Source: a virus
IMG/VR virus record: IMGVR_UViG_3300050821_003265
Location: 1 to 47,049 of that record
Reading direction: 5' to 3' (one strand)
DNA: 47,049 nt
Notes under the pieces: generated by a model
What the model was told of the DNA's origin: nothing
The model's database searches: none
Seen by the model: the letters and a program-made list of their open reading frames with translations, nothing else
Position numbers and translations under genes: made by a program
Shown: in pieces, positions 542 to 47,049 of the stretch
How positions within the stretch are numbered: position 1 is the stretch's first letter
Layout: each line of letters begins with the position of its first letter

Positions 542-1072
542 TTGAGATCACGCGCGTTCATCGCCGCCATTCTTTGCGGATTCGCCGCGATCCCTGCCAT
601 CGGCGACGGAGAAGGCCTGAAGATCTCCAATTGGCCGAATTATTCGAACATCGGTGGATCCGTGGCAGTGACGAACTTCCCGGCCGTGCAGTCGGTATCG
701 GTCCAAACGAGCACCGGAACGAATGTGCTCGTTCAGAATTATCAGATTACGGGATCCACCACCATCGGGCAGACGGTCGCCTCTTACACTGTTCCAATAG
801 GCGTCACCTTTTATCTGGAATACGCCGAGGCTGAGTCTTACTATCTCACCTTCACGACGTCCGTGAGCAATTTCGGAGCGGCCTACTTTTCGATCAATGG
901 GATCCACGGCTATACCACTCAGCTGGCCGGCGCCGGCATTTCGCGCAGCGGAATTGTTTCGTTCAATCCGCCTTTAATGTTCCCGGCCGGAACAACGGTG
1001 GCATGGCTCGTAACGCCGGCATCATCAACCGGGACTGTGTGGTATGGAAATTTCGGAGGCTACTACAAATGA
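542..1072 (+). CDS. Exported beta-rich protein, possible virion or surface adhesin
   Basis: TTG start at 542 with AGGAGG ten bases upstream; the frame is open further upstream but only this start has a Shine-Dalgarno site. The first about 20 residues are a Sec-type signal peptide: basic start, Ala/Ile/Leu core, and an Ala-Ile-Gly cleavage region. The remaining 155 aa are Ser/Thr/Gly/Tyr-rich beta strands with a VxVTNFP-like motif near residue 42, a pattern common in phage tail fibres and in the 41649 protein. It lies between the endolysin and a small Ala-rich gene. Function is unknown; an exported fibre-like or receptor-masking protein is inferred. Confidence 0.6.
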   Translation: MRSRAFIAAILCGFAAIPAIGDGEGLKISNWPNYSNIGGSVAVTNFPAVQSVSVQTSTGTNVLVQNYQITGSTTIGQTVASYTVPIGVTFYLEYAEAESYYLTFTTSVSNFGAAYFSINGIHGYTTQLAGAGISRSGIVSFNPPLMFPAGTTVAWLVTPASSTGTVWYGNFGGYYK

Positions 1073-6775: not shown

Positions 6776-8059
6776 GTGCCAAAGCCGCCTCTTCCCCTCG
6801 GTACCACGCGCACATCAATCAAAAAACAAAGGCCTTCTCCCGTCCTTCCCCATCATAAAATCGTCAGAATGCGGCTCGAGGATTTGGATCCCGCGCCCTA
6901 CAATCCGCGCACCATTTCCAAAGAGTCCATGCAGGGCTTAAGCGAAAGCCTTCGGCGTTTTGGACTCGTGCAGCCCATCGTCTGGAATAAACGATCGAAG
7001 CAAATCATCGGTGGTCATCAGCGGCGTGAGGCGCTCATGGATCACGGCGCGGAGGAGGCGGACGTGGTTGTCGTCGATCTCGACGAAAACGATGAACGGG
7101 CGCTCAACATCACACTGAACAATCCGGCGGTGGCCGGCGAATTTACCGACGAGCTTCAAAGTCTCCTTGTGGATTTAAAAGAACAGATGCCGGAACCATT
7201 CGAGGATCTTCGGCTCGATGAGCTTCTGAAAGATCTCGCCGGCAGCGGAGAAGTTATAGAAGACGAAGCCCCACCCCCCCCCAAGATTGCTGTGTCAAAA
7301 CCTGGGGATTTGATTCAGATGGGCGACCATCTTCTACTCTGCGGAGATTCCTGCGTGACCACGGATATCGAGCGGTTGATGAAGGCGGCCGGCGCCCAGG
7401 CCGACATGGTATTCACAGATCCTCCCTACGGGGTAAAATTCGGCGAGGCCAATCATAACCCACGCGCAAAGCGCTGGGATGCCATCGCCAACGACGAAAA
7501 ACAAGGCGAGAGCCTATACGATTTCAGCTCGCACTGGGTCGCATCGATTCTGATTGCGGCCAAGGAATCGGCGCCGCTCTACTGCTGGAGCGCATCGATG
7601 GACTCGGGCTATGAGATCGTTAAAGCGCTGCGCGATGGCGGGATCCACGTTCAGTCGCAGATCATCTGGGTAAAAAATGTCCTGGTGCTCGGACAAGCGG
7701 ACTATCAATGGAAACACGAGATCTGCTGGTATGGCTGGAAAGAAGGCAAGCACCATTACTGGGCCGGCGGCCGCACCCTGACCACCGTCTGGGAATTTTC
7801 AAAGGATGCCAACAGCGCTTACGTTCACCCGATGCAAAAGCCCGTGGCGCTCAGCGCGAATGCAATCCATAATTCCTGTCCGGCCGGCGGAACCGTGCTC
7901 GACCTCTTCGCGGGATCCGGATCCACACTCATGGGTTGCGAACAATCCAAGCGCCGCTTTATCGGTCTTGAACTTGATCCGCGCTATTGTGACGTCATTA
8001 TCCAGCGATGGGAAACATCGACGAGAAAAAAAGCAAAGCGCCTGCCAAAGTCAAAATAG
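6776..8059 (+). CDS. ParB-like domain fused to a DNA methyltransferase
   Basis: 427 aa. The N-terminal ParB/Srx-like domain (about 28-120) has NPR at 43-45 and the GGHQRREAL motif at 79-87. The C-terminal half is a class-beta-order methyltransferase: catalytic DPPYG at 215-219 first, SAM-binding DLFAGSGSTL at 376-385 last. It would transfer a methyl group from SAM to adenine N6 or cytosine N4 in DNA. Such fusions are usual in phages and protect viral DNA or mark packaging and replication sites. No cognate restriction enzyme is nearby. GTG start has only a weak ribosome site. A nine-C tract (7274-7282) encodes a Pro linker between the domains. Confidence 0.85.
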   Translation: MPKPPLPLGTTRTSIKKQRPSPVLPHHKIVRMRLEDLDPAPYNPRTISKESMQGLSESLRRFGLVQPIVWNKRSKQIIGGHQRREALMDHGAEEADVVVVDLDENDERALNITLNNPAVAGEFTDELQSLLVDLKEQMPEPFEDLRLDELLKDLAGSGEVIEDEAPPPPKIAVSKPGDLIQMGDHLLLCGDSCVTTDIERLMKAAGAQADMVFTDPPYGVKFGEANHNPRAKRWDAIANDEKQGESLYDFSSHWVASILIAAKESAPLYCWSASMDSGYEIVKALRDGGIHVQSQIIWVKNVLVLGQADYQWKHEICWYGWKEGKHHYWAGGRTLTTVWEFSKDANSAYVHPMQKPVALSANAIHNSCPAGGTVLDLFAGSGSTLMGCEQSKRRFIGLELDPRYCDVIIQRWETSTRKKAKRLPKSK

Positions 8060-10192: not shown

Positions 10193-10657
10193 ATGAGAAA
10201 AATCCTGCTCGTTTTGTCGTTAGCCGCTTTGGCTACCGGCTGCAGTAAAAAGGATGACACGCCGGCGCCTCAGACTCCGCACGTAGCCGGCGTCTGGTCC
10301 GGCACCGGCACTGACGATGCCATCGGGTTCTACAACATCACGATGACCTTGACTCAATCCGGCAACCAGGCGTCGGGAACATTCGCGACATCCTCCGGAT
10401 TCGCCACAACATCCGGAAACGTTACGCTCACGGTCGGACCCGCCGGAGGAAACAACGTGCAGAAGCTGGCGCTCACCAGAACGCAATGGAGCCCGACGGC
10501 TCCTGCACCGAGCCGGACCTGTGCCGGCACCATGATGCTTTCCACACCAACATTCATGACCGCAAGCTCAATCACGTTTTCATACACGATCACCGATTGC
10601 CAGGGCGGATCTTGGAACGGCGGAGCAAACCTCACAAAAACGGCGGGAACCAATTAA
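10193..10657 (+). CDS. Phage-encoded lipoprotein
   Basis: 154 aa. The N-terminus is a signal peptidase II substrate: Met-Arg-Lys, a Leu/Ala core, then LATGC with the lipid-accepting Cys at 17, followed by Ser-Lys-Lys-Asp-Asp. The Asp at +4, not +2, leaves outer-membrane sorting open. The mature part has VWSGTG and alternating MTLTQSGNQASGTF strands like small beta-barrel or lipocalin-like lipoproteins. Phage lipoproteins such as T5 Llp block receptors and cause superinfection exclusion, so that role is an inference here. GGAGGGG precedes the ATG. Confidence 0.75.
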   Translation: MRKILLVLSLAALATGCSKKDDTPAPQTPHVAGVWSGTGTDDAIGFYNITMTLTQSGNQASGTFATSSGFATTSGNVTLTVGPAGGNNVQKLALTRTQWSPTAPAPSRTCAGTMMLSTPTFMTASSITFSYTITDCQGGSWNGGANLTKTAGTN

Positions 10658-11291: not shown

Positions 11292-11381
11292 TCTCTTTCC
11301 TCCGCCGCTCGGGGGTCCTTGAGAGGGGAAGCGGGCGGCGGGGATGAAGGGAAAAACCAAGTCTCAATACAGGGGTCACTT

Positions 11382-12761
11382 ATGAAATGGGAAAACATGG
11401 TGTCGGCTGGGCTTTTATTGGGAATGTGCGCGGCCCCGGTTTATTCGACATTGGGTGGCGATTGCGGGCAAGTGGCTGGCCCACCGGAACTTTGCGGGGT
11501 CGGCCCTACCTTTGATTGCAGTATGTGGGAGGGATCCCCGGCAACAATCTGGGAAAATTGCGGGGGTCCGAGTGCTTGTGTTGCCGATGGTTCGTCGCCC
11601 ACCGGATATTCCCAGACCTATCAAACCGAAGCAGATCAATTTGTCCAAGTAGCGCCTTGCAATTGCACTTCATTCGGCATATGCGGATGTGCCGTTCAAT
11701 TCTCGCGCGGTAGTTCTTGTCGGGGTTTATGCACTGTTGCCTGCCCGCCGCCTTCCACGCCGTGTCTGAGTTTCTCTCCCTGGGGAAATGCCGGGTGTGC
11801 GGCTGGCGGTTGTACCGCCGGACAAATGGAACAGACACGCACCGGCAACCCCAGCTCCTGCAATCCTGGCTCAAATCCATTGACGCAATGTATCGCCGAC
11901 TCCACCGATTGTTCGCCGCCCTCAAACGTCGTTCTTACCGCTAATCCGCTGACCATCCATTTAGGCGATACGGTCGTGCTTTCATGGACCTTTACCGGCG
12001 GCTCGGCCACCAGCGAAACGATCAATCAAGGCATCGGGAGCGTATCCGGTTATTCCTATACGGCGACGCCGGCCAGCGCAGGATCCATCACCTACACGAT
12101 CACCATTTCAAATGCGATCGGAAGCAACAGCGCGAACGCCACCGTCACGGTTTTGCCGCCGTTGCCGAGGTGCGGAGCGGGAAATATCTGCGGGCATGTT
12201 TACGCGCGTGAAAAACCGACGCTTGCTCTTCCGGGTGAAATTATCGAACTTAGGACTTCTCTGGGGAATATCTACTGGACTTCAATGACCGACAACACCG
12301 GAACCTATACGATGTCCGGTGTCCCGGCTGGAAGTTATTGGATCAGCGTTGCCAATGGTCGCAACCAGTTCAGTAATCCGACTTATGTAAAAACGCAACC
12401 TAACAACGTGATCGGCGTGCTGGACTTTCAGAAAGCGGGACGCCAAGCCATCGTTACGATTGCGGGACCGCCGGACTCCTTTGTGTTGGTGAGTACTTTC
12501 AGCTATTTGGGCGCTGCGCCGCCGAGCGTTGGGGACGGTGTGCCTTATTTGTATGTCGTCAGTGCGTCCATTGGTTTACCGGACCAGACCGGAACTTCCA
12601 ACGCGGTTTTCCGCATCTTGGGGGGTCAAGATTATTGGTTCCGCTGCTGGACGCCTCAGCTCCTGAACAATCAATATGTTTATCTTCCGGGTGCCAGCGT
12701 TCATATGGCTTCGGGTGCGACGCTCTGGCCGATGGATACGGATTCGGAGGTATGCCCGTGA
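11382..12761 (+). CDS. Large exported Cys-rich protein with Ig-like and CarboxypepD_reg-like domains
   Basis: 459 aa from ATG 11382 (AGGGG eight bases upstream). Residues about 1-22 are a Sec signal ending around VYS. The mature N-terminus to about 170 is Cys-rich with many short CxxC or Cx4C spacings. Residues about 175-260 look like a bacterial Ig-like domain (PLTIHLGDTVVLSWTFTGG, ending in NATVTV). About 270-330 resembles a carboxypeptidase-regulatory/SpaA-like domain (GHVYAREK, TDNTGTYTMSGVPAGSYWISV). The rest is beta-rich. This is a host-surface type architecture in the early region of a phage. It is probably displayed on or secreted from the infected cell; the target is unknown. Confidence 0.65.
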   Translation: MKWENMVSAGLLLGMCAAPVYSTLGGDCGQVAGPPELCGVGPTFDCSMWEGSPATIWENCGGPSACVADGSSPTGYSQTYQTEADQFVQVAPCNCTSFGICGCAVQFSRGSSCRGLCTVACPPPSTPCLSFSPWGNAGCAAGGCTAGQMEQTRTGNPSSCNPGSNPLTQCIADSTDCSPPSNVVLTANPLTIHLGDTVVLSWTFTGGSATSETINQGIGSVSGYSYTATPASAGSITYTITISNAIGSNSANATVTVLPPLPRCGAGNICGHVYAREKPTLALPGEIIELRTSLGNIYWTSMTDNTGTYTMSGVPAGSYWISVANGRNQFSNPTYVKTQPNNVIGVLDFQKAGRQAIVTIAGPPDSFVLVSTFSYLGAAPPSVGDGVPYLYVVSASIGLPDQTGTSNAVFRILGGQDYWFRCWTPQLLNNQYVYLPGASVHMASGATLWPMDTDSEVCP

Positions 12762-17998: not shown

Positions 17999-18631
17999 TT
18001 AAAAAGCCACAGGCGTCCCGTCGAGCGGGGAAGCCACATTTGAGATAGGTCTTGTGGACAGTACCTTGTGGACTACGGATTTACTAACTCCAATTCGAGT
18101 TGCGATGGCGCGAATGGATGCTTTCCCGCGCAGGGTGAGGATATCGGCCACCTTGCGGGAAGAGAGGGGAGCGCGGCCCAAGCGCGTTCCTTGGGCACGG
18201 GCGCGGGCGAGACCGGCATGAATTCTCTCCTGAATGATGTTGCGCTCAAATTCAGCGAAGGAAGCGAAGATCCCAAACATGAGCTTCCCCTGGGAGGTCC
18301 CAGTATCAATCCGCTCTTGGTGGGAGGCAAAATCAATACCGCGCTCTCGGAACTCCTCAAGCGCCTCGACCAGATGTGACAGGCTGCGGGCGAACCGATC
18401 GAACCGCCAAACCAACACGCAGTCCACATCTCCCGCCCAAGCAAACTCCATAAGCTCACGAAGGTGTGGACGATCTTTTTTCGAGCCTGATACGGCATGG
18501 TCCACGAACTCTCTAACAACCGACCATCCACGAGACGCGCAATGGCGCCGCAGTTCAAGCAATTGGTTGTCGGAAGTTTGGTCAGAGGTGGAAACTCTTG
18601 CATAGAGGGCGACTCGCTTTGTTTTTTCCAT
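17999..18631 (-). CDS. Small serine recombinase (resolvase/invertase type)
   Basis: 210 aa. The N-terminal catalytic domain has YARVSTSDQ with Arg12 and nucleophile Ser14, then VWRFDRFARSLSHLVEALEEF and the GKLMFGIFASFAEFERNIIQERIHAGL helix that leads into the arm. A C-terminal HTH (about 160-195, ASIRAIATRIGVSKSVVHKVL) completes a Tn3-resolvase/Hin-type enzyme. It lacks the long C-terminal domain of large phage integrases. It cuts two DNA sites with a 2-bp stagger and resolves multimers or inverts segments. GGAGGG precedes the ATG. Resolution of circular dimers is my favoured inference; tail-fibre inversion is possible but no inverted site pair was seen. Confidence 0.85.
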   Translation of the reverse strand: MEKTKRVALYARVSTSDQTSDNQLLELRRHCASRGWSVVREFVDHAVSGSKKDRPHLRELMEFAWAGDVDCVLVWRFDRFARSLSHLVEALEEFRERGIDFASHQERIDTGTSQGKLMFGIFASFAEFERNIIQERIHAGLARARAQGTRLGRAPLSSRKVADILTLRGKASIRAIATRIGVSKSVVHKVLSTRPISNVASPLDGTPVAF

Positions 18632-36746: not shown

Positions 36747-37117
36747 TGATCATCCGATCGCTCACCCCTGCCGGAGATTGGACCTTCGGAAACGGCGTTG
36801 GGAACTACGCAACGAATGAGGCGGCCGTGGAGGAGAACATCCTTACCTGGCTACAGTCCTGGGTAGGGAATTGCTTCTTTGCGTTGAAGGACGGCGTCGA
36901 TTGGCAGAACCTTCTGGACGTCGGCCAGCAGCAGAACCTCGAGGATTCGCTTCGCCTGAACATCCTGCAACGCTACGGCGTGGTTGCCGTCAATAGCCTG
37001 GTGGCCGTGCTCAACCCGCGTACCCGGTTCATATCGATTGTGGCGAATATCACGACCATCTTTAGCCAATCGTTCCAGCTGGAGCTCACGCAGATTGCGG
37101 GGACACCCAATGGTTAG
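36746..37117 (+). CDS. Baseplate wedge, gp25/gpW-like
   Basis: 123 aa. ATNEAAVEENILTWLQSWVGNCFFALKDGVDW and the C-terminal beta region fit a gp25-like sheath initiator, which nucleates sheath assembly at the baseplate. It precedes the baseplate J gene, the usual order. ATG shares a base with the previous stop. Confidence 0.75.
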   Translation: MIIRSLTPAGDWTFGNGVGNYATNEAAVEENILTWLQSWVGNCFFALKDGVDWQNLLDVGQQQNLEDSLRLNILQRYGVVAVNSLVAVLNPRTRFISIVANITTIFSQSFQLELTQIAGTPNG

Positions 37118-38285
37118 CGAGCTTGGACCCAATGGACTTACGATCGATAGCCTTTCGACCCTTGTGGCCGCGATCACCACGCAATTGCAGGCGATCTACG
37201 GCCCGGATATTAATGTCGATTCAAACTCGCCGGACGGCCAGCTCATCAACATATTCATGCAGGCTGTCGAGGACACGCTCGAGCTGGTTCAATCCGTTTA
37301 TAACTCCTTCGGATTCATGACCGCCTACGGGACGCAATTGGATCAACGTCTGGCGATCCTTGGCATGGCCCGCAAGCAAGGGACGCAAACGACGACGCCG
37401 GTGCTCGTCACAGTCAACCAGGCTCTTACGCTTTATGGAACGGACCAGACCGCTCAACCCGTTTACACGCTCGTCGACCAGACCGGCAACCAATGGCAGC
37501 TCGTGACGACAAACGTTTTCAGCTCCGCGGGCAGCGCATCCCTCACATTCCAAGCTGTCACCATCGGTGCAATTGGAGTTACGGCAAACACAATCACACA
37601 GCAGGTCACCACGGTCTTGGGCGTCACATCCGTCAACAACCCGACGGTCGTCGGGACAATCATCGGCGTCCCCGAAGAGAACGACACTCAATATAAAGTC
37701 CGCGCGGCCCAATCCTTCGCTTTGGCTTCTACCGGACCGGCCGATTCTGTGGAAGCAGCGCTCGATAATATCGCAGACGTGACGGATGCCTTCGTCGTGG
37801 AAAACGATACAAACGCCACCGTCAATGGGACGCCGGCGCATTCCATCTGGTGCATCGTGGCCGGCGGCACGGCGGCCGAGATCGGGACAGCCATCTATTC
37901 CAAGAAAGCGCCGGGATGCGGGATGCGGGGAGCGCAATCCTATGTCGTGACACGCCCAAATGGGACAACCTTTACAGCCTTGTGGGACACAGCGCTATCG
38001 CAAAACCTCTATATCAAATTCGGAATCATCTGGCGCGGCGGTGTGGCGCTCGATAACACCACCATCATCAATCAGCTGGCGGCCGCACTCATCTACAAAT
38101 TGAATCAGCCGGCCAGCGTAGGCGATATCGTGACGGCCATGGCGACCATCGCGCCAACCGCCATTGTCGATTTAACCGGGAATCAAGGTGTCTCGACGGA
38201 CGGCATCACTTATGAATCCATCGTAAACCCGACATCCCCACAATATGCCTTTGAGGTGCTGGCGGCGAACATAGAGATCTCATGA
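37110..38285 (+). CDS. Baseplate J-like wedge protein
   Basis: 391 aa. Opening TTQLQAIYGPDINVDSNSPDGQLINIFMQAVEDTLELVQSVYNSF (start of the protein to about residue 70), then GTQLDQRLAILGMAR and EENDTQYKVRAAQSFALAS, the J-family landmarks. It forms the wedge ring that links hub, sheath and fibres. ATG 37110 overlaps the previous gene by eight bases; longer starts upstream are unlikely. Confidence 0.9.
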   Translation: MVSELGPNGLTIDSLSTLVAAITTQLQAIYGPDINVDSNSPDGQLINIFMQAVEDTLELVQSVYNSFGFMTAYGTQLDQRLAILGMARKQGTQTTTPVLVTVNQALTLYGTDQTAQPVYTLVDQTGNQWQLVTTNVFSSAGSASLTFQAVTIGAIGVTANTITQQVTTVLGVTSVNNPTVVGTIIGVPEENDTQYKVRAAQSFALASTGPADSVEAALDNIADVTDAFVVENDTNATVNGTPAHSIWCIVAGGTAAEIGTAIYSKKAPGCGMRGAQSYVVTRPNGTTFTALWDTALSQNLYIKFGIIWRGGVALDNTTIINQLAAALIYKLNQPASVGDIVTAMATIAPTAIVDLTGNQGVSTDGITYESIVNPTSPQYAFEVLAANIEIS

Positions 38286-39037
38286 CGACCCAAGAACTCA
38301 TCGATTACTACGTCGCGCTTTTGATCATCCAATATGCGACCCAGCCCAATGCGACGGCCACAATAGCCGCCTATATCACCGAGCTCGTCCAGAATCAGAT
38401 TTACGCGCAAGTGGGCGATGGATTCAATTTTGCCGTTTCGCCTATCGGGGCTCAGATTGATAGCGCTGTCGGGGTCCAGCTCGAGGCGGTCGCGTCCTAT
38501 CGCGGCGCGCAAAGGATTTATTTCGGTCTTGCGCCTCATTCCTATTTTCAATTTCCCGATGCGACGGATGAGGGAACCTTCGACGGATTTATGGACGCTG
38601 CTGATTCGCCTTCGGTCATCACGTGGCTCTTTGCCACCGCTCAGGATACGCAACAGCCGGTCTACACGCTGACCGACGATGAGCTTTATCGCCTCACACA
38701 ATTCCGAGCGCAGGTCCAATCCTCACCATTGGGACTGGGCGATATCGACAACATTCTGGAGACTTTTTTCGGAAACAATGTGACCGTCATCGACAATGAA
38801 AACATGACGATCCTCTACATCGATCTGCTGTCGGACCCCGACACATTATTCGGAGTGGTCGCTATCAGTCAGAGCTTTCCAAAGCCTGCCGGCGTGTTGG
38901 TGCAGGCGATACGCGCCGAAATGCTTACAAACTTTTTCGGATTGCAGGATGCGGAGACCGGCTACGACTCGAGCTTTGCAGGATTCAGTGATGCGGAGAC
39001 GACTCTCACGACCGGCACGTTCATAAGCGCACCATGA
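38282..39037 (+). CDS. DUF2612-like baseplate/tail protein
   Basis: 251 aa following baseplate J, where gpI or DUF2612 proteins sit. YYVALLIIQYATQPNATATIAAYITELV and GVQLEAVASYRGAQRIYFG followed by FRAQVQSSPLGLGDIDNILETFFG are the DUF2612 pattern. It probably joins the wedge to the tail-fibre proteins. ATG overlaps the previous stop. Confidence 0.75.
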   Translation: MTTQELIDYYVALLIIQYATQPNATATIAAYITELVQNQIYAQVGDGFNFAVSPIGAQIDSAVGVQLEAVASYRGAQRIYFGLAPHSYFQFPDATDEGTFDGFMDAADSPSVITWLFATAQDTQQPVYTLTDDELYRLTQFRAQVQSSPLGLGDIDNILETFFGNNVTVIDNENMTILYIDLLSDPDTLFGVVAISQSFPKPAGVLVQAIRAEMLTNFFGLQDAETGYDSSFAGFSDAETTLTTGTFISAP

Positions 39038-39050
39038 GGAGGATCTAGCT

Positions 39051-39944
39051 ATGGCAAGAATCACGAGGGTAACAGCGATTCCATTCGGCGCGTCCGGAAC
39101 GACGGACGATTTCGAGACATTCGGATCGACAGCCGTCGGGGGAACGGATTATTCCAAGGACATCGCGGCCATCCAGGCGACCGATGCGTGGCTGAATGGT
39201 TGGCGCCCTGCACTCATCGCCGCGAAAGCGCCGGTCCTGCAGGACATGAACGGGAAGATGCTCGTCGACAGCAACCTGATTTGCTACCTGTTTCAAGACG
39301 GTGTCCCCGAATATGATTCCGGAACCACCTACTATATTGGCGGCGTGGTTAAGTACCTCGGAAATTCCGGCTACGTTGAATTTTATGTGTCGCTGACGAA
39401 TTCCAACACCGGAAACGCGCTTGGAACAAGGGTCAGTAACTCGAATTGGATGTTCCTCTACGCCATGAACACCACGACCCAGGGCCTGATTATCCCTGGA
39501 ACCAATACAAACGATTCGGCAGCCGCCGGAGATGTTGGGGAAGTCATCACGGCAAATCTTGGATCTGGTTCTGCTGCGTCCCTTTCAACGGGTTCTGGAA
39601 AAAGCCTGTGTTCCATATCTCTCACGCCAGGCCAGTGGGATATAACAGGATTGGTTCAGTTCATCGTCGCCAGCACGACTTCCGTCACCTCCTTCGTCTC
39701 GAGCTTAAGCAAAACAAACAATACGGTAGGAGGCGCAACAGCAGTTCCCACGGCGGCTGGAGAGGTTCAGGTAGAAAACGACCGTCCTTTGGTCGCATCC
39801 GGATCTACTGAAATCGCCCTCAATATTCCATCTATTGTGGCTAAGGTAGCAACGACGGCAACCTATTATCTTGTCGCGCAGGCGGTTTTCACGGTTTCAA
39901 CGATGACGGCCTTCGGAAGTATCACAGCCGTTCGGAGACGATAA
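39051..39944 (+). CDS. Tail fibre/receptor-binding protein (cytoplasmic type)
   Basis: 297 aa, GGAGG upstream, no signal peptide. N-terminal attachment-like region, then YDSGTTYYIGGVVKYLGNSGYVEFYVS. The last about 145 residues (from AAAGDVGEVI to ITAVRRR) are related to the C-terminus of the 44087 protein: both share AG(D/N)VGE, SI(S/A)LT-x-G-x-W and a final GxITAxRxR. The domain is probably the receptor-facing tip. This is the conventional fibre of the set. Confidence 0.75.
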   Translation: MARITRVTAIPFGASGTTDDFETFGSTAVGGTDYSKDIAAIQATDAWLNGWRPALIAAKAPVLQDMNGKMLVDSNLICYLFQDGVPEYDSGTTYYIGGVVKYLGNSGYVEFYVSLTNSNTGNALGTRVSNSNWMFLYAMNTTTQGLIIPGTNTNDSAAAGDVGEVITANLGSGSAASLSTGSGKSLCSISLTPGQWDITGLVQFIVASTTSVTSFVSSLSKTNNTVGGATAVPTAAGEVQVENDRPLVASGSTEIALNIPSIVAKVATTATYYLVAQAVFTVSTMTAFGSITAVRRR

Positions 39945-39973: not shown

Positions 39974-41638
39974 ATGAAAAAAATTATTTTCGCTACGAGC
40001 ATCTTCTTATTAACGGCGGTCGCCTTGCGCGCCATTTGGGTCTACAACGCCTATCTCTTCAATGGGGTCGTCGCTTACAACCAGAACGCCGTGCTCAATC
40101 TCAATACGACGCCGAACGCCTCCGGCATTGCGCGGCTCACTGCGCAAGCGGTCTATTCGTCCAGCACGCTGCCCACGGATACCTTTAACGATGGGCGTGT
40201 ATCGACGGCCACCTTCACCGTTGTAACGAATACCGGGATCTCCTCAGCGACGGCTACAGATCAAATAACGATCGCGGCTAATTCGGTCATCCAATCCTCG
40301 GCCGCCGCAGATAGCGTGACGGTAGTTTCAACGAACGGATTGACCGGCGCGTCCATAACTCTCAATGGAACGGTCCTTACGAATAATGGCTGGCGCGTTG
40401 ATTTAACGAGCGATACCGCTGCGGATATCGCGACCCAGATCAATGCCTACGTCTATCAGGTTATTGCCACGCCCAATTCGAGCAAGGTTCTTTTGGCGGC
40501 TCGTAACAAAGGAGTGGGCGGAAACTCTTATACCCTCGTTACTTCCACGCCCACAGCGCTATCAGCCAGCTCCGCTACATTCACTGGCGGTCAGAATGAT
40601 GCCTTCCAGAATCAGTCGATCACGATTAATGGAAGCGTCTATCCGCGCGGGAATTATTGGAATTTCCCCAATACGGGGCCGTTGACATCGACGGGGACAG
40701 CGGCATCCATTGCTTCTTTAATCAACAGCATTTCGGGGATGCAAGCGAGCGCGGCCGGCAGCGTGGTCTTTGCCACAGCGACGGTTTATGGGACCGCCGC
40801 AAATGCCTACACGATCGTTTCTTCGACGCCTACGGCAATGACCGTTGCAAATCCTACCTTCACGGGCGGGGTTAATAATGCAGTTATCACGATCAATGGG
40901 ACAGCACTCACCCAGGGCGCGCAATGGTCAGCGGGAGCCAACACGACGGCTACGGCCGCCTCTATCGCCGCGGCCATCAATGCCAGCGCCTCTTTAAGCT
41001 CGATTGTGGTTGCCACAAATACCGCCAACATCGTCAATACCACGTCGACGGCGGTAGGAACGCTATCGAACTATACGACGACCAGTTCGACTCCGGCTGC
41101 CATTGCGGCATTGCACGCCACTTATGTCGGAGGCCAGAATTCGTCGTTTGCGATCAATAGCCCGACGATATTTATCGCCTCCCATGGTTATGTCACGGGG
41201 ATCCCGGTGCTCCTGTCAACGGGAGGAGCAGCCGCTCCATCCCCGCTGGCGAACCAGACCACTTACTACGTGATTGCGGTGGATGCAAACGACATCCAGC
41301 TGGCGACGACCTCAGCGCGGGCTCAGAGTGGGCTGTATGTGACGATCACCTCCTCGAGCACGACCGGGCCGCATACCTACACGCTCACGCCTTCCACCAT
41401 TACGGGAACAGCCGGGCTTCAATGGCAGGTTTCCAATGATTGCGTCAATTACACGAATTACACCACCACGCTGTTGGGCGTCGCTGTTTCAAGCCTTACG
41501 TTCGCCACGCCTTATACGGCAAGCGCGACGACATGGGATCTCGGACCCGTGAACTATGAATGTATCCGGGCGGCTCTTACAGGACCCTCCACAGGTGGCT
41601 GGGCGCTTCAATTGAAGCTCAACGGGAGCAACCCGTAA
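39974..41638 (+). CDS. Signal-peptide-bearing repeat fibre-like protein
   Basis: 554 aa, AAGGAG before ATG. Residues 1-20 are a clear Sec signal (MKKIIFATSIFLLTAVALRA). The mature protein has three tandem repeats of roughly 90 residues (about 115-215, 216-305, 306-395), each running from a SITxNGxxLT strand through an AASIAxxINA helix to YTxxSSTPTAxxxxxxTFTGGxN. It then continues into a beta-rich tail with paired Cys (NDCVNYT, NYECIRAAL). Low-charge, Ser/Thr/Ala/Asn-rich composition is fibre-like. An exported virus adhesin or surface layer is inferred. Confidence 0.7.
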   Translation: MKKIIFATSIFLLTAVALRAIWVYNAYLFNGVVAYNQNAVLNLNTTPNASGIARLTAQAVYSSSTLPTDTFNDGRVSTATFTVVTNTGISSATATDQITIAANSVIQSSAAADSVTVVSTNGLTGASITLNGTVLTNNGWRVDLTSDTAADIATQINAYVYQVIATPNSSKVLLAARNKGVGGNSYTLVTSTPTALSASSATFTGGQNDAFQNQSITINGSVYPRGNYWNFPNTGPLTSTGTAASIASLINSISGMQASAAGSVVFATATVYGTAANAYTIVSSTPTAMTVANPTFTGGVNNAVITINGTALTQGAQWSAGANTTATAASIAAAINASASLSSIVVATNTANIVNTTSTAVGTLSNYTTTSSTPAAIAALHATYVGGQNSSFAINSPTIFIASHGYVTGIPVLLSTGGAAAPSPLANQTTYYVIAVDANDIQLATTSARAQSGLYVTITSSSTTGPHTYTLTPSTITGTAGLQWQVSNDCVNYTNYTTTLLGVAVSSLTFATPYTASATTWDLGPVNYECIRAALTGPSTGGWALQLKLNGSNP

Positions 41639-41648
41639 GGAGACTCTC

Positions 41649-44090
41649 ATGCGGCGACTTTTACTGACGGTCGCACTCAGTGCGGTGGCCTGGCGCTCCG
41701 CCATGGCCGGCCCCGGAAGCGCTTCCGGCCCCATCACGGTTGACAGCACTACCTATGTCGCTGGGCAATCCGTGATGGGGACCGACGGTGGAGTCTATTC
41801 AGACACGCTTCCCCCCATCACCAGCACCACCACGGCCGCCTACCGCATGACGAGATATCGCGCCGAGCACGTCAATCTTCGCGACAGCTCTGGCGTCGAG
41901 CTTGGAACCAGCGGAAACCCCGTCCACACGACTGGAAATTCCGTCGTCCAAATCTCCACCGTACAGGTGGTGAATTCCACCGTGTCGGTCAGTGGATCAA
42001 CAATAAACGTAGCCGGCGTCGTTAATGCCAACCTCGTCAATGTTGGGACAGTCACAATCAGCGGCACTGTCCCTGTGAACTCGACCTCCGTCAATGTTTC
42101 AACGGTCACGGTGAACGGTGCGGTTTCAGTAAACAACACCTCCGTCAACGTGGCGACCGTGACTGTTTCGGGGACTCCGACGGTGAATGCGGTTCAATCG
42201 GGGACCTGGAATACAAACGATACGAGCGTGAACGTCGCCACAGTGACCATCAAAGGCACCCCGAGCGTCAATGCCACGCTGGTAAATGTGGGCACGACGA
42301 CGATTCTTGGTACGCCCACGGTGAACTCCACCTCGGTAAATGTCTCGACCGTTATCATCAACGGCACCCCCGGTTTTATTCAGACGAACGTTTCCACGGT
42401 CACGATCAGTGGCATTCCGAGCGTCATCCAGGCCAATGTTTCCACCGTCACTGTGACCAACAATCCCGGTATTTATCTGCTCAACGTGGCGACTGTCACG
42501 CATTCCGCCAGCTCGATCTATAACGTCACGGGCTCTACCGTCAATATCAATGGCGGCGTCAATGCGACCATCGTTGGCACCCCTTCGGTAAATGCCTACG
42601 TCACAAATCCAACGACCTCCACGATATCGGGATTGGTAAATGTTACCGGCTCAACCGTGAACGTAGCCGGGACATTGAGCGCGACCGTCTCCGGAACGCT
42701 CAATGCCAACATCGTCAATATTCCGACGATGACGATCACGGGTACCCCGAATGTGGCTGTGACAAATAGCCCTTATGTTTTTTCCGCTAACGTTTCGACG
42801 ACGACGATCCTGGGTACCGTTCCTGTGAATGCCACCGTGGTAAATATCCCGACGATGACGATCACAGGCACTGCGAACGTAGCCGCATCGCAGACCGGGA
42901 CCTGGTTGACAACAACGCAAGTCCTCAATCAGAGCGCCTCTCCAACGAGTGTTGGATACAGCGGGGGGGCTCTCCCGATGCCGGCCGAGATCACCGACGG
43001 GATAAATATAGCCACGATCACGCATACCTCCAACGGAAACGGCCTTAACGTCAATATTGTGGGGGGAGCTGGGAACGGTGGAACCAGCTCGAATTACTCC
43101 AGCAATTTCCCCAGTGCTGGAACGGCGCTCGGATTTGTCAATGCCTCGGGTCTTATGCAGGCGGCCGAGGTCGATGCCTCAAGCGATGTTTATGTCAATG
43201 TGGTAGCCGGGGTGAACGGATCCACTGTCACCGTCGGCGGGGTGGTCCAAGTATCCGGAACGGTCGGGATTTCATCCGCGACGCCATTCAACGTGAGCGG
43301 ATCCACGATTAACATCGGAGGAACTCCTAACGTAAATGTGAGCAACACTCCGAATGTTTCGGTGACCAATACGCCCAATGTCAGCGTGACAAACACGGTG
43401 GGGACTACACTCACGGCGCAATTGCCCGCCGGCGCAAACAATATCGGGACGGTAACGGGATCCACCGTGAATGTGGCCGGAACCATCAGCGCCACGATCA
43501 GCGGAACGCAAAATGCCAATATCGTGAATATCCCCACGACAACCGTCAGCGGTGTCGTTTCGGCCGCACAATCAGGAACGTGGAACGTCAACGCCACCAG
43601 CGTCAATGTAGGAACGGTGACGGTAAGCGGAACGCCGAATGTCAACGCGATTCAATCGGGGACCTGGAATGTAAACAACACCTCCGTCAACGTGGCGACC
43701 GTGACGATCTCGGGTAACCCGACCGTTATACTGGGCGCCGGCTCTAATGTGATCGGAAAAATAAACTTTGCTACTCCCACCACGACGGTGTTTTCCAGTC
43801 AGACGATCAGCACGGCATCCACGGGCGAGCTTGTCATAGTCTCGACTGGATCTTCCCAAACGGTCCGGGTATTCCGCATGTTCTTTGTGGTGAGCGCCGC
43901 TACGACCATCGTCATTAAGGACGGTACCGGCCAGACCTTCACCGGCCCGATCACCTTTAACGCCGGCGGATCATTTATCCTCGACTTCGACGGTGATCCC
44001 TGGTTCACAACGAATTCTGGAGCCTCCTTCGAGTTTAACCAGACCGGCACAGCTCAGATCAGCGGCCGCGTGTGGTACACGCAATCATGA
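41649..44090 (+). CDS. Signal-peptide-bearing giant beta-repeat protein
   Basis: 813 aa, AGGAG upstream. Residues 1-20 form a Sec signal (MRRLLLTVALSAVAWRSAMA). Residues about 95-700 are dominated by a short strand repeat of the type SVNVSTVTVxGTPxVN, dozens of copies, with SGTWNVN variants, suggesting a beta-solenoid or trimeric shaft. The last 90 residues form a distinct domain (TGSSQTVRVFRMFFVVSAATTIVIKDGTGQTFTGPITFNAGGS). DNA copies are partly identical, so the repeat can recombine. Tail-fibre shaft or exported adhesin. Confidence 0.7.
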   Translation: MRRLLLTVALSAVAWRSAMAGPGSASGPITVDSTTYVAGQSVMGTDGGVYSDTLPPITSTTTAAYRMTRYRAEHVNLRDSSGVELGTSGNPVHTTGNSVVQISTVQVVNSTVSVSGSTINVAGVVNANLVNVGTVTISGTVPVNSTSVNVSTVTVNGAVSVNNTSVNVATVTVSGTPTVNAVQSGTWNTNDTSVNVATVTIKGTPSVNATLVNVGTTTILGTPTVNSTSVNVSTVIINGTPGFIQTNVSTVTISGIPSVIQANVSTVTVTNNPGIYLLNVATVTHSASSIYNVTGSTVNINGGVNATIVGTPSVNAYVTNPTTSTISGLVNVTGSTVNVAGTLSATVSGTLNANIVNIPTMTITGTPNVAVTNSPYVFSANVSTTTILGTVPVNATVVNIPTMTITGTANVAASQTGTWLTTTQVLNQSASPTSVGYSGGALPMPAEITDGINIATITHTSNGNGLNVNIVGGAGNGGTSSNYSSNFPSAGTALGFVNASGLMQAAEVDASSDVYVNVVAGVNGSTVTVGGVVQVSGTVGISSATPFNVSGSTINIGGTPNVNVSNTPNVSVTNTPNVSVTNTVGTTLTAQLPAGANNIGTVTGSTVNVAGTISATISGTQNANIVNIPTTTVSGVVSAAQSGTWNVNATSVNVGTVTVSGTPNVNAIQSGTWNVNNTSVNVATVTISGNPTVILGAGSNVIGKINFATPTTTVFSSQTISTASTGELVIVSTGSSQTVRVFRMFFVVSAATTIVIKDGTGQTFTGPITFNAGGSFILDFDGDPWFTTNSGASFEFNQTGTAQISGRVWYTQS

Positions 44091-45349
44091 GAAGGATCGC
44101 CTTGGCGCTGATATTTTGCGCGCCGCTTGCCTATGGAAGTCAGATCGTAAATCCTTCCACAAGTGGAGGCGGGGGCGGGGGCGGAAGCGGGACGGTAAAT
44201 TCTGGGACCAACAGTCAAGTGGCGTATTATTCTGCGCCGGGATCCAGCACGACCGTCAGCGGGACAACCATAATGCAGGTCTTCGCATCGAGCGCGGCCG
44301 TCAACGGACAGCTCGATATGAAATCAAACAATGTCACGGGCGTTCTGGACGCTGTGGTATCGAGCCATGCAATCAATCTTTCTCAGCTCGCCAACGTGGC
44401 ATCTGCGAATGCAATTATCAATCCGAATTTCGATGGGTGGTACAACGGGACAAGCTCCACCAGCCCCGCTCTCGGCACTGCGGTTGCTTCCAGCTGGTTG
44501 ATGAGCTCGAATTTAACACTCGGCGGGAGCTGGTTCGTTTCTCAAAACACAGTGACAACCCACAATGCTAAGTACAGTGCGCAAATCACCGTTACAGGAT
44601 TTCAGAACAATACCTATTACGGTCTGCGGCAATCAATTCCTAATTATCAGCCTTATCTCGGATCATCGGTCACATTGACAGCGTGGGTTAATTCAAACGT
44701 TGCGCAGACGATCAGTATAACCGATAACGTGGGTGGAAGCACTTCGACGGCAAGCTCCGCAGGTGCCGGCTGGCAACAGCTCTCGGTCACACGCTATATC
44801 TCATCATCCGTCACTTCGTTGTCGGTGACGTTGGGATCGAACATTCTCAGTTCCCTCCAGAACAGTTTTTACGACAACGTTATGATCGTTCCTGGCGATG
44901 CACCTATAAACTATATACAGGTCCCGCAAGGAATCGTCGGAGTGACCGATGGAAGCAGCGCAACGGCTGGCAACGTCGGAGAATGGATTTCCGCAGCAGC
45001 TTCTGCCGTCAATCTACCAACGAGCGGCAATTGGGGAGACGCCACTTCGATAGCATTGACAGCGGGTGATTGGGAAGTCTGGCTTTATGCAAATACCGGA
45101 GCCAATGGGGCGACCGTCACGGATTCCCGTATAGGCTTATCGACTACCTCTGGGAACACTGCTCCTTCTCCTTTTGGTGATACGCAAATTCAAACATCGC
45201 AGCCAGGAGCGGTTTTCAATGGAGTGGGATCCATGAATCAGCGATTTTCATTCAGCACGCCCACAACAGTTTATTTCAAAATGGAAGCGACCTACACCGC
45301 CGCGACACCACAAATTTATGGACGGATCACGGCCCGGAGGATGCGATGA
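44087..45349 (+). CDS. Signal-peptide-bearing fibre tip-like protein with carbohydrate-binding-like domain
   Basis: 420 aa; ATG overlaps the previous stop. Residues 1-17 are a Sec signal (MRRIALALIFCAPLAYG). A Gly-rich linker leads to GTVNSGTNSQVAYYSAPG, a motif common in phage fibres. The middle (about 110-285, INPNFDGWYNGTS through SVTLTAWVNSNVAQTISITD and NSFYDNVMIVPGD) resembles a jelly-roll carbohydrate-binding module. The C-terminus is related to that of the 39051 fibre (AGNVGE ... ITARRMR). Receptor recognition is the likely role. Confidence 0.7.
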   Translation: MRRIALALIFCAPLAYGSQIVNPSTSGGGGGGGSGTVNSGTNSQVAYYSAPGSSTTVSGTTIMQVFASSAAVNGQLDMKSNNVTGVLDAVVSSHAINLSQLANVASANAIINPNFDGWYNGTSSTSPALGTAVASSWLMSSNLTLGGSWFVSQNTVTTHNAKYSAQITVTGFQNNTYYGLRQSIPNYQPYLGSSVTLTAWVNSNVAQTISITDNVGGSTSTASSAGAGWQQLSVTRYISSSVTSLSVTLGSNILSSLQNSFYDNVMIVPGDAPINYIQVPQGIVGVTDGSSATAGNVGEWISAAASAVNLPTSGNWGDATSIALTAGDWEVWLYANTGANGATVTDSRIGLSTTSGNTAPSPFGDTQIQTSQPGAVFNGVGSMNQRFSFSTPTTVYFKMEATYTAATPQIYGRITARRMR

Positions 45350-45954
45350 GCACGCCTTTGATTACGCTCTATCTTCCAGGCAGAAACCTTTTCGTCGTGA
45401 TTCAGAACGTCGCGACGAGCCAATTCTGGAACAAGGACACGCCTGGCTGGGAGAATTACAATCAAGGGAACTGGGCGCACTATGCGGTCCCATTCGTTGA
45501 GTATGTGAGCAGCGGAATCTATTCGGTGGCCTATCCCTCTGGCATCGCGGCCGGCGTGCTCTCGAATGATTTCGTCTACCAACAGAACGGGGCAACGCCG
45601 ACGTTGCCCGGCCTTCCGGGCGGAGACACCTTCCTGACTCTCATGCAGAGCCAAGGATCCAATATCCAGACGATCGCCGGAAATGGAGCAGCTCCCATCG
45701 GGATGGCAGCTGCGGGTACCGTGATTGTTCCGAATGGTGCAGTTGGATCCGGAAGTATTTCGACGACATCCTTCCCCACCAATCTTCCTTCTGCCCCAGC
45801 GCAGGCCTATGTCGGCCGCATCATCGCATTCACGTCCGGCATTAACATAGGACAGGAGACGAATATCACTGCCTATAATCCGACCGGCGGCGTGATCACT
45901 GTGACGGCGCTGACCAATGCACCCACCACAGGCGATACGTTCGTGATGCTCTAA
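45346..45954 (+). CDS. Fibre-associated protein, 202 aa
   Basis: ATG overlaps the previous stop. Opens TPLITLYLPGRNLFVVIQNVATSQFWNKDTPGWENYNQGNWAHYAV, then a Gly/Ala/Thr-rich segment and a beta-rich end (GQETNITAYNPTGGVITVTALTNAPTTGDTFVML) typical of phage tail accessory proteins. No signal peptide. Same transcript as the fibres. Confidence 0.6.
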   Translation: MSTPLITLYLPGRNLFVVIQNVATSQFWNKDTPGWENYNQGNWAHYAVPFVEYVSSGIYSVAYPSGIAAGVLSNDFVYQQNGATPTLPGLPGGDTFLTLMQSQGSNIQTIAGNGAAPIGMAAAGTVIVPNGAVGSGSISTTSFPTNLPSAPAQAYVGRIIAFTSGINIGQETNITAYNPTGGVITVTALTNAPTTGDTFVML

Positions 45955-46540: not shown

Positions 46541-47049
46541 TTGGAAGAGCGCAGGGAGGACTGGAACAATTCCGTCGATGCGCGACTGGTGAATTTAAAC
46601 AGCGCGCAGAAATCGGCGGACATCGATCTGGAGAAACTCCGGCGCAAAGCAGAGAAGGTCGACCTCATCCTCCGCGGGGATCCCGCGCGCAACATCGAGG
46701 GCTTGATCGAAGCGATCAATCACTTGAAGAGCGAGATCAACAAATACAACCGAATTTTCGACAAGGATTATCTGGGGCATGGCGGCCTGGTGAACTTCAT
46801 CGCCTATGTCTACGAGCGCGAGAAGGAGAAGGAGCAAGCGCGCCAGGCGAATGTCGGATACAAGTGGGGATTCTGGGGTGTGATCCTGGCCGCCGTGATT
46901 GGAGCGGCCGCTGTTATATTGACGAACAAGGAGCAGTTAGAGAAATGGTGGATGAATCCACATCTCACACCCATTGAACAGAAAATTGAAAACGCGAAGC
47001 ATCCCAAATCGAGGCATCGCCATTTCGTGATCAAGGAGCCGCTCGATGA
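46541..47049 (+). CDS. Coiled-coil, single-TM lysis-region protein (holin-like), 5' part across the join
   Basis: TTG start immediately after an in-frame TGA (46538-46540), with GAGG about 12 bases upstream. The whole protein is 177 aa once joined to positions 1-78. Residues 1-100 are highly charged and helical, with likely coiled coil around 20-70 and 90-105. One hydrophobic segment (about 107-128, rich in Ala/Ile/Val) is followed by a basic tail ending in an Arg/His cluster. It sits directly upstream of an M15 endolysin. That position and the coiled-coil-plus-TM layout resemble XhlA/holin-type accessory lysis proteins, but no holin signature was recognised. It could instead be a membrane anchor or spanin-like protein. 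Confidence 0.7.
   Translation, partial: MEERREDWNNSVDARLVNLNSAQKSADIDLEKLRRKAEKVDLILRGDPARNIEGLIEAINHLKSEINKYNRIFDKDYLGHGGLVNFIAYVYEREKEKEQARQANVGYKWGFWGVILAAVIGAAAVILTNKEQLEKWWMNPHLTPIEQKIENAKHPKSRHRHFVIKEPLD
46997..47049. repeat. 53-bp terminal overlap, right copy (circular join)
   Basis: Exact copy of positions 1-53. It lies inside the 3' part of the coiled-coil/TM lysis-region gene, whose frame continues at position 1 and stops at 76-78. After removing one copy the circle is 46,996 bp. Confidence 0.9.

Follow-up and report, generated by a model that had tools for sequence, protein, structure and literature searches.

The window, by which we mean the whole stretch of 47,049 bases analysed here, is a virus record bounded by 53-bp direct terminal repeats (positions 1–53 equal 46997–47049). 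It encodes a PBSX-type terminase, a portal, a sheath, a tape measure, a baseplate hub and baseplate J, and thus comes from a contractile-tailed phage of ~47 kb. The portal shares 36% identity with its counterpart in the Bdellovibrio phage phi1422. The baseplate hub, J and DUF2612 proteins, which stand in the same gene order in both phages, share 30–38% identity with those of phi1422. A 2012 paper places phi1422 among the dwarf myoviruses of the phiPLPE group (PMC3391216). Downstream of the baseplate genes lies a row of fibre-like genes, most of which begin with a signal peptide (SP).

37107 to 38285, plus strand: baseplate J protein, the query for collecting relatives
38282 to 39037, plus strand: DUF2612 baseplate-region protein
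39051 to 39944, plus strand: P0004, SP-less fibre immediately 3′ of the baseplate genes (phrog_11393, phrog_20878)
39974 to 41638, plus strand: P0001, 554 aa, Sec SP and a repeated beta-domain with a C-terminal Cys pair (C490, C530), assigned by SP score and a six-member family
39974 to 40033, plus strand: P0001 signal peptide, residues 1–20, score 5.20, with cleavage predicted before IWVYNAYL
41649 to 44090, plus strand: P0002, 813 aa, SP, Val/Thr/Asn-rich repeats (~8 DNA repeat copies) and a C-terminal phage domain
41649 to 41708, plus strand: P0002 signal peptide, residues 1–20, with predicted cleavage between SAMA and GPGSASG
44087 to 45349, plus strand: P0003, 420 aa, SP, Gly linker, fibre body and tail-fibre tip
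44087 to 44137, plus strand: P0003 signal peptide, residues 1–17, with predicted cleavage between LAYG and SQIVNP (SQIVNP is conserved in the related phage G002)
44930 to 45346, plus strand: P0003 receptor-tip domain, residues 282–420 (phrog_11393, phage fibres, 8vbx_R, TNF-like lectin fold)
45346 to 45954, plus strand: SP-less protein 3′ of the cassette, kept in G002, with similar ones in relatives
542 to 1072, plus strand: fourth SP-bearing fibre-like protein, TTG start, 176 aa, score 4.94

A sequence-only reading of this DNA had singled out the reading frames at 39974, 41649 and 44087 as consecutive fibre-like proteins with Sec signals. All three are real at those coordinates and all three are SP-bearing, but that reading missed a fourth SP gene (542–1072) and the SP-less fibre P0004 at 39051. 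Strong Shine-Dalgarno sequences precede P0001 (AAAGGAG) and P0002 (AAGGAG). P0003 overlaps P0002 by ATGA and has no clear Shine-Dalgarno; its alternative starts, ATG 44087 and GTG 44072, both include the SP. The fourth gene sits just across the genome ends, after a peptidase-like ORF (108–536), and adjoins the other three on the circular map.

Several other genes of the window were noted in passing. The ORF at 6776–8059 is a fusion of a ParB domain with a DNA methyltransferase (phrog_498). A small protein with a lipoprotein-type signal (LATGC) is encoded at 10193–10657, away from the structural module. The product of 11319–12761 (start probably ~11382) is a Cys-rich protein containing a PKD-like domain. 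It probably carries a signal peptide, MKWENMVSAGLLLGMCAAPVYS, and is possibly another exported phage protein. By eye, the minus-strand ORF 17999–18631 is a serine recombinase of the resolvase/invertase type; despite its presence, a search of the window for the long inverted repeats of an invertible fibre segment found none.

Signal peptides of the fibre-like proteins

The N-termini of P0001, P0002 and P0003 each have the n, h and c regions of a Sec-type signal peptide. They were scored by rules for n-region charge, h-region hydropathy and the residues at −3/−1, rather than by SignalP. On this rule-based scale the three reach 5.20, 5.07 and 5.09, respectively, equal to ten textbook E. coli SPs used as positive controls (4.6–5.4), and the adjacent fibre P0004 scores 2.95. 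When residues 2–40 were shuffled, the observed score was reached in 2.6% (P0001), 0.2% (P0002) and 0.02% (P0003) of cases. The claim that all three carry Sec signals is therefore borne out. The signals are of the SPI type, with no lipobox Cys at the cleavage site, and the proteins that bear them are 420–813 aa long.

Taken alone, the SP of P0001 is the weakest of the three, having an Arg near the cleavage site. It is clarified by G002 (IMGVR_UViG_3300024254_000013), whose cassette is syntenic with that of the window and has SPs on all four proteins. The G002 homologue of P0001 has a textbook SP ending in ATASA, immediately before the mature start IWVYNAYL that is common to both proteins. Six full-length, SP-bearing members of the P0001 family were found, namely that of the window and those of five other phages of the group. 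The five SPs are identical to the window's at 4–8 of 20 residues (20–40%), compared with 37–69% identity in the mature part, and a good SP is present in 6/6. Judged from these sequences, what persists in the SP of the P0001 family is its function rather than its residues. The same pattern bears on the view that the hydrophobic N-termini are retained membrane or baseplate anchors rather than export signals. Although the non-textbook cleavage site of P0001 itself would suit such anchors, the n-, h- and c-regions with small −3/−1 residues persist while the sequence drifts, and many family members have AxA cleavage sites. We hence regard retained anchors as very improbable.

The other proteins behave alike. 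The G002 homologue of P0003 (43% identity overall) keeps the tip and the SP, and SQIVNP is kept behind a different SP. The P0002 homologue also keeps its SP. The sole early internal ATG of P0002 close to the cleavage site, the codon of Met19, is missing from the G002 homologue; this speaks against an additional form that would stay in the cytoplasm. The positional homologue of 542–1072 in G002 (L029 8129–8542) is SP-bearing as well, with 25% identity between the two. Looking for the same signals in homologous phages, as had been suggested, thus finds them kept in G002 and in the P0001-family homologues. An additional small SP protein, MIKVMMLVGCIAASAIAAPATDVFYIYSDKGAP, is common to G002 (L029 3256–3921) and G003 (L031 18931–19260).

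Tail-fibre ancestry of the SP-bearing proteins

P0003 provides the clearest link to known fibres. Its residues 276–420 match PDB entry 8vbx_R, tail fiber gp47 (E=1e-11), and the tip falls in phrog_11393 (tail fibre) with ~40% identity to tail fibres of Pectobacterium and Klebsiella phages. The likeness is one of homology at the tip, where the comparison with P0003 was made; the difference is that those proteins are annotated as ordinary virion fibres. Among the PDB sequence matches there was no solved tip of the mosaic adhesive trimers (MATs) discussed below. The predicted models of P0001 (AlphaFold, pLDDT 30) and P0003 are low in confidence, and the P0003 tip alone is usable; with pLDDT 70–84 in parts, it bears a tentative resemblance to two TNF-like lectins, BC2L-C and PLTL. 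P0001 matched no named family in family searches. For residues 687–813 of P0002, the only homologue found is an SP-less protein encoded by an uncultured phage of 595 kb.

SP proteins in relatives likewise match PHROG tail-fibre and tailspike families. That of L030 combines a beta-helix tailspike and an S74 chaperone, those of L068 and L114 have S74 chaperone domains, and that of L054 has common PHROG fibre domains. In some, the canonical fibre start follows immediately after the SP (KISELP/KISQLP in L067 and L063, ISGLP in L054), and the same motif opens SP-less fibres elsewhere. These matches speak against the option, raised by the sequence-only reading, that the genes are host-derived. Captured host surface adhesins without a phage function would find some encouragement in predatory Bdellovibrio, which encode similar SP-plus-fibre proteins. 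However, the tips and bodies match phage families, the P0003 C-terminus being a phage tail-fibre tip, and the P0001 family persists at the same place in at least six phages, so that we consider host capture extremely improbable.

Distribution among related phages

Relatives were reached through the terminase and then through aligned baseplate J; the scan with the window's baseplate J protein alone returned no relative. Likewise, a scan of viral contigs with P0003 alone found none, and alignment-based searches with P0001 and with P0002 returned G002 alone. Eighty loci, some of them near-copies, were gathered via baseplate J. A contig scan of genomes gave 11 prophage-like loci, with an exported fibre cassette in none of the regions viewed.

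A loose screen of the 80 relatives calls an SP in 1/846 genes upstream (head, tail and baseplate) versus 52/438 genes downstream. The error rate of the screen was gauged on those 846 genes together with 80 SP-less fibres, none of which was positive. The loose screen takes in some non-fibres, for instance proteins of 158 aa or of spanin-like type in L086 and L089–L091, which a stricter screen drops. Under strict fibre-like criteria, exported fibres are present in 20 phages, the window, G002 and phi1422 among them, and 27 others, whose downstream sequence is 6 kb or longer, have no exported fibre. The earlier suggestion of a coordinated set linked to a tail module gains from the cassettes of the relatives, which bear out the linkage.

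On the baseplate J tree, the window belongs to an eight-phage clade (97% SH-aLRT) in which every member has exported fibres. Over the whole tree, eight changes of the trait suffice, at least six of them forced by starred branches, versus 15.7 in shuffles; the trait is therefore partly inherited, with several gains or losses. In the sister pairs examined, the place of the SP gene is taken by non-homologous genes, not by the same gene with or without an SP. The cultured Bdellovibrio phage phi1422 has SPs on gp68 and gp75, and shares with the window both exported fibres and a homologous structural module in the same gene order. The other cultured phages compared, PhiPLPE, 56, CP-T1 and ZF40, which have proteobacterial hosts, differ in having an SP in none of 21 fibre-region proteins.

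The SP-less neighbour and possible roles of the SP-bearing fibres

P0004-type fibres are present in 66 loci, and an SP is found in 0/80 copies; the tag therefore belongs to the cassette, not to fibres generally. The tail fibre protein of PhiPLPE at the position of P0004 is annotated as confirmed in virions by MS, and P0004 is probably the virion's own fibre. On balance, we favour the reading that the phage carries, in addition to this SP-less fibre, a cassette of Sec-exported adhesins derived from tail fibres. The three genes and 542–1072 would form this cassette, each encoding a tail-fibre-derived protein with a cleavable Sec SP, and from their position we infer late expression. Sec export of the products is likely and has good support from the comparison of relatives. 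The SP-bearing fibres would leave the cytoplasm of the infected cell and fold and oligomerise outside it, and P0004 would be retained in the cytoplasm, available to the virion. After export, the SP-bearing fibres would most probably serve as surface adhesins of the infected cell, or be released at lysis.

The sequence-only reading had named display or release, attachment to virions after lysis, and host origin as the options, and these are the ones to weigh; loss from virion assembly, which it expected of export, may or may not follow. Two other roles start from the same genes. First, the proteins might be genuine fibres of the virion whose maturation takes place outside the cytoplasm; they would wait in the periplasm and dock on tails after lysis. 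They do derive from virion fibre domains, and their genes continue the run of late virion genes, with starts that overlap. In addition, the sister phages L083 and L068 differ in the fibre region, which holds a large SP-less fibre in the former and the exported fibre in the latter; a fibre of the exported kind may thus take the place of one in the virion. Nevertheless, 19 of the 20 exported-fibre phages also have a P0004-type SP-less fibre (the exception, L068, is itself a short fragment), and the MS-confirmed PhiPLPE protein occupies just that position; we therefore think post-lysis docking unlikely. Second, an exported fibre with a virion-type tip might cover the phage's own receptor, preventing superinfection or the loss of progeny on debris. 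Receptor blocking has a precedent in T5 Llp, and P0003 and P0004 have a C-terminal tip domain in common (E=6e-9; phrog_11393 matched by both). In G002, however, the exported P0003 homologue keeps the tip and no copy of it is detectable in the P0004-type fibre (L028 6864–8087), which has a weak match to the second domain of Mtd instead; the two tips are therefore not locked together. Gene position, suggesting late expression, also speaks against receptor blocking, which we hold to be distinctly unlikely. The Mtd fold is the target fold of the diversity-generating retroelement of Bordetella phage.

How exported fibres of the favoured kind would stay on the cell surface is suggested by a single case. 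The SP-plus-S74 fibre of L114 (14506–16149) terminates in a hydrophobic segment followed by a basic FRKRS tail, resembling a C-terminal sorting signal and forming a possible anchor. A general cell-surface anchor was sought in the exported fibres and none was found, L114 being the sole one with a hydrophobic end and basic tail.

Discussion

Tail fibres are generally held to be cytoplasmic parts of the virion, and to our knowledge signal peptides are not expected on ordinary phage tail fibres. We found no report of them there in the open-access literature. The target proteins of phage diversity-generating retroelements, variable proteins of fibre type, are without signal peptides, and this absence has been taken as support for a phage origin (PMC6199706). 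In the phi1422-group paper, the passages matching a keyword search do not mention signal peptides (PMC3391216). The SP feature of the cassette is real, conserved and unusual.

The closest working analogue that we can offer is bacterial. Bdellovibrio bacteriovorus encodes on its chromosome the MATs, SP-bearing, tail-fibre-like trimeric adhesins found on the surface of the predator (PMC10769870). They show that SP-bearing, tail-fibre-like proteins containing S74 can reach a bacterial surface (PMC10769870). In both systems, an SP is followed by a beta-rich protein resembling phage tail fibres with varied adhesive tips (PMC10769870), and the proteins of the window have this combination of SP and fibre-like adhesin. 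The S74 chaperone of some MATs recurs in the relatives L030, L068 and L114. The two also differ, in that MATs are chromosomal bacterial proteins with a common beta-rich domain of ~130 aa after the SP, whereas those of the window are phage genes in a tail operon; we claim no MAT membership.

Among phage systems, T5 Llp and phi80 Cor are small phage-coded exported lipoproteins that block receptors and are without fibre domains. The fibres of the window resemble them in being phage-coded and, by prediction, exported and differ in having fibre domains, no lipobox and a length of 420–813 aa. Exported fibre adhesins as such are already known; what would be new here is that a phage encodes them beside its virion fibre. 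We propose, tentatively and from sequence comparison, that one tailed-phage lineage possibly inherits a set of fibres retargeted by Sec to the surface or surroundings of the infected cell, for a phage function in which no phage system described so far employs fibres. Such fibres may serve in adhesion, in receptor control or in decorating virions after lysis.

The conserved split between SP-less and SP-bearing fibres within one gene cluster means that phages may deploy fibres outside the virion. The cassette may also be connected with the fibre adhesins that predatory bacteria export, and phi1422 in B. bacteriovorus provides a cultured system that carries exported fibres.
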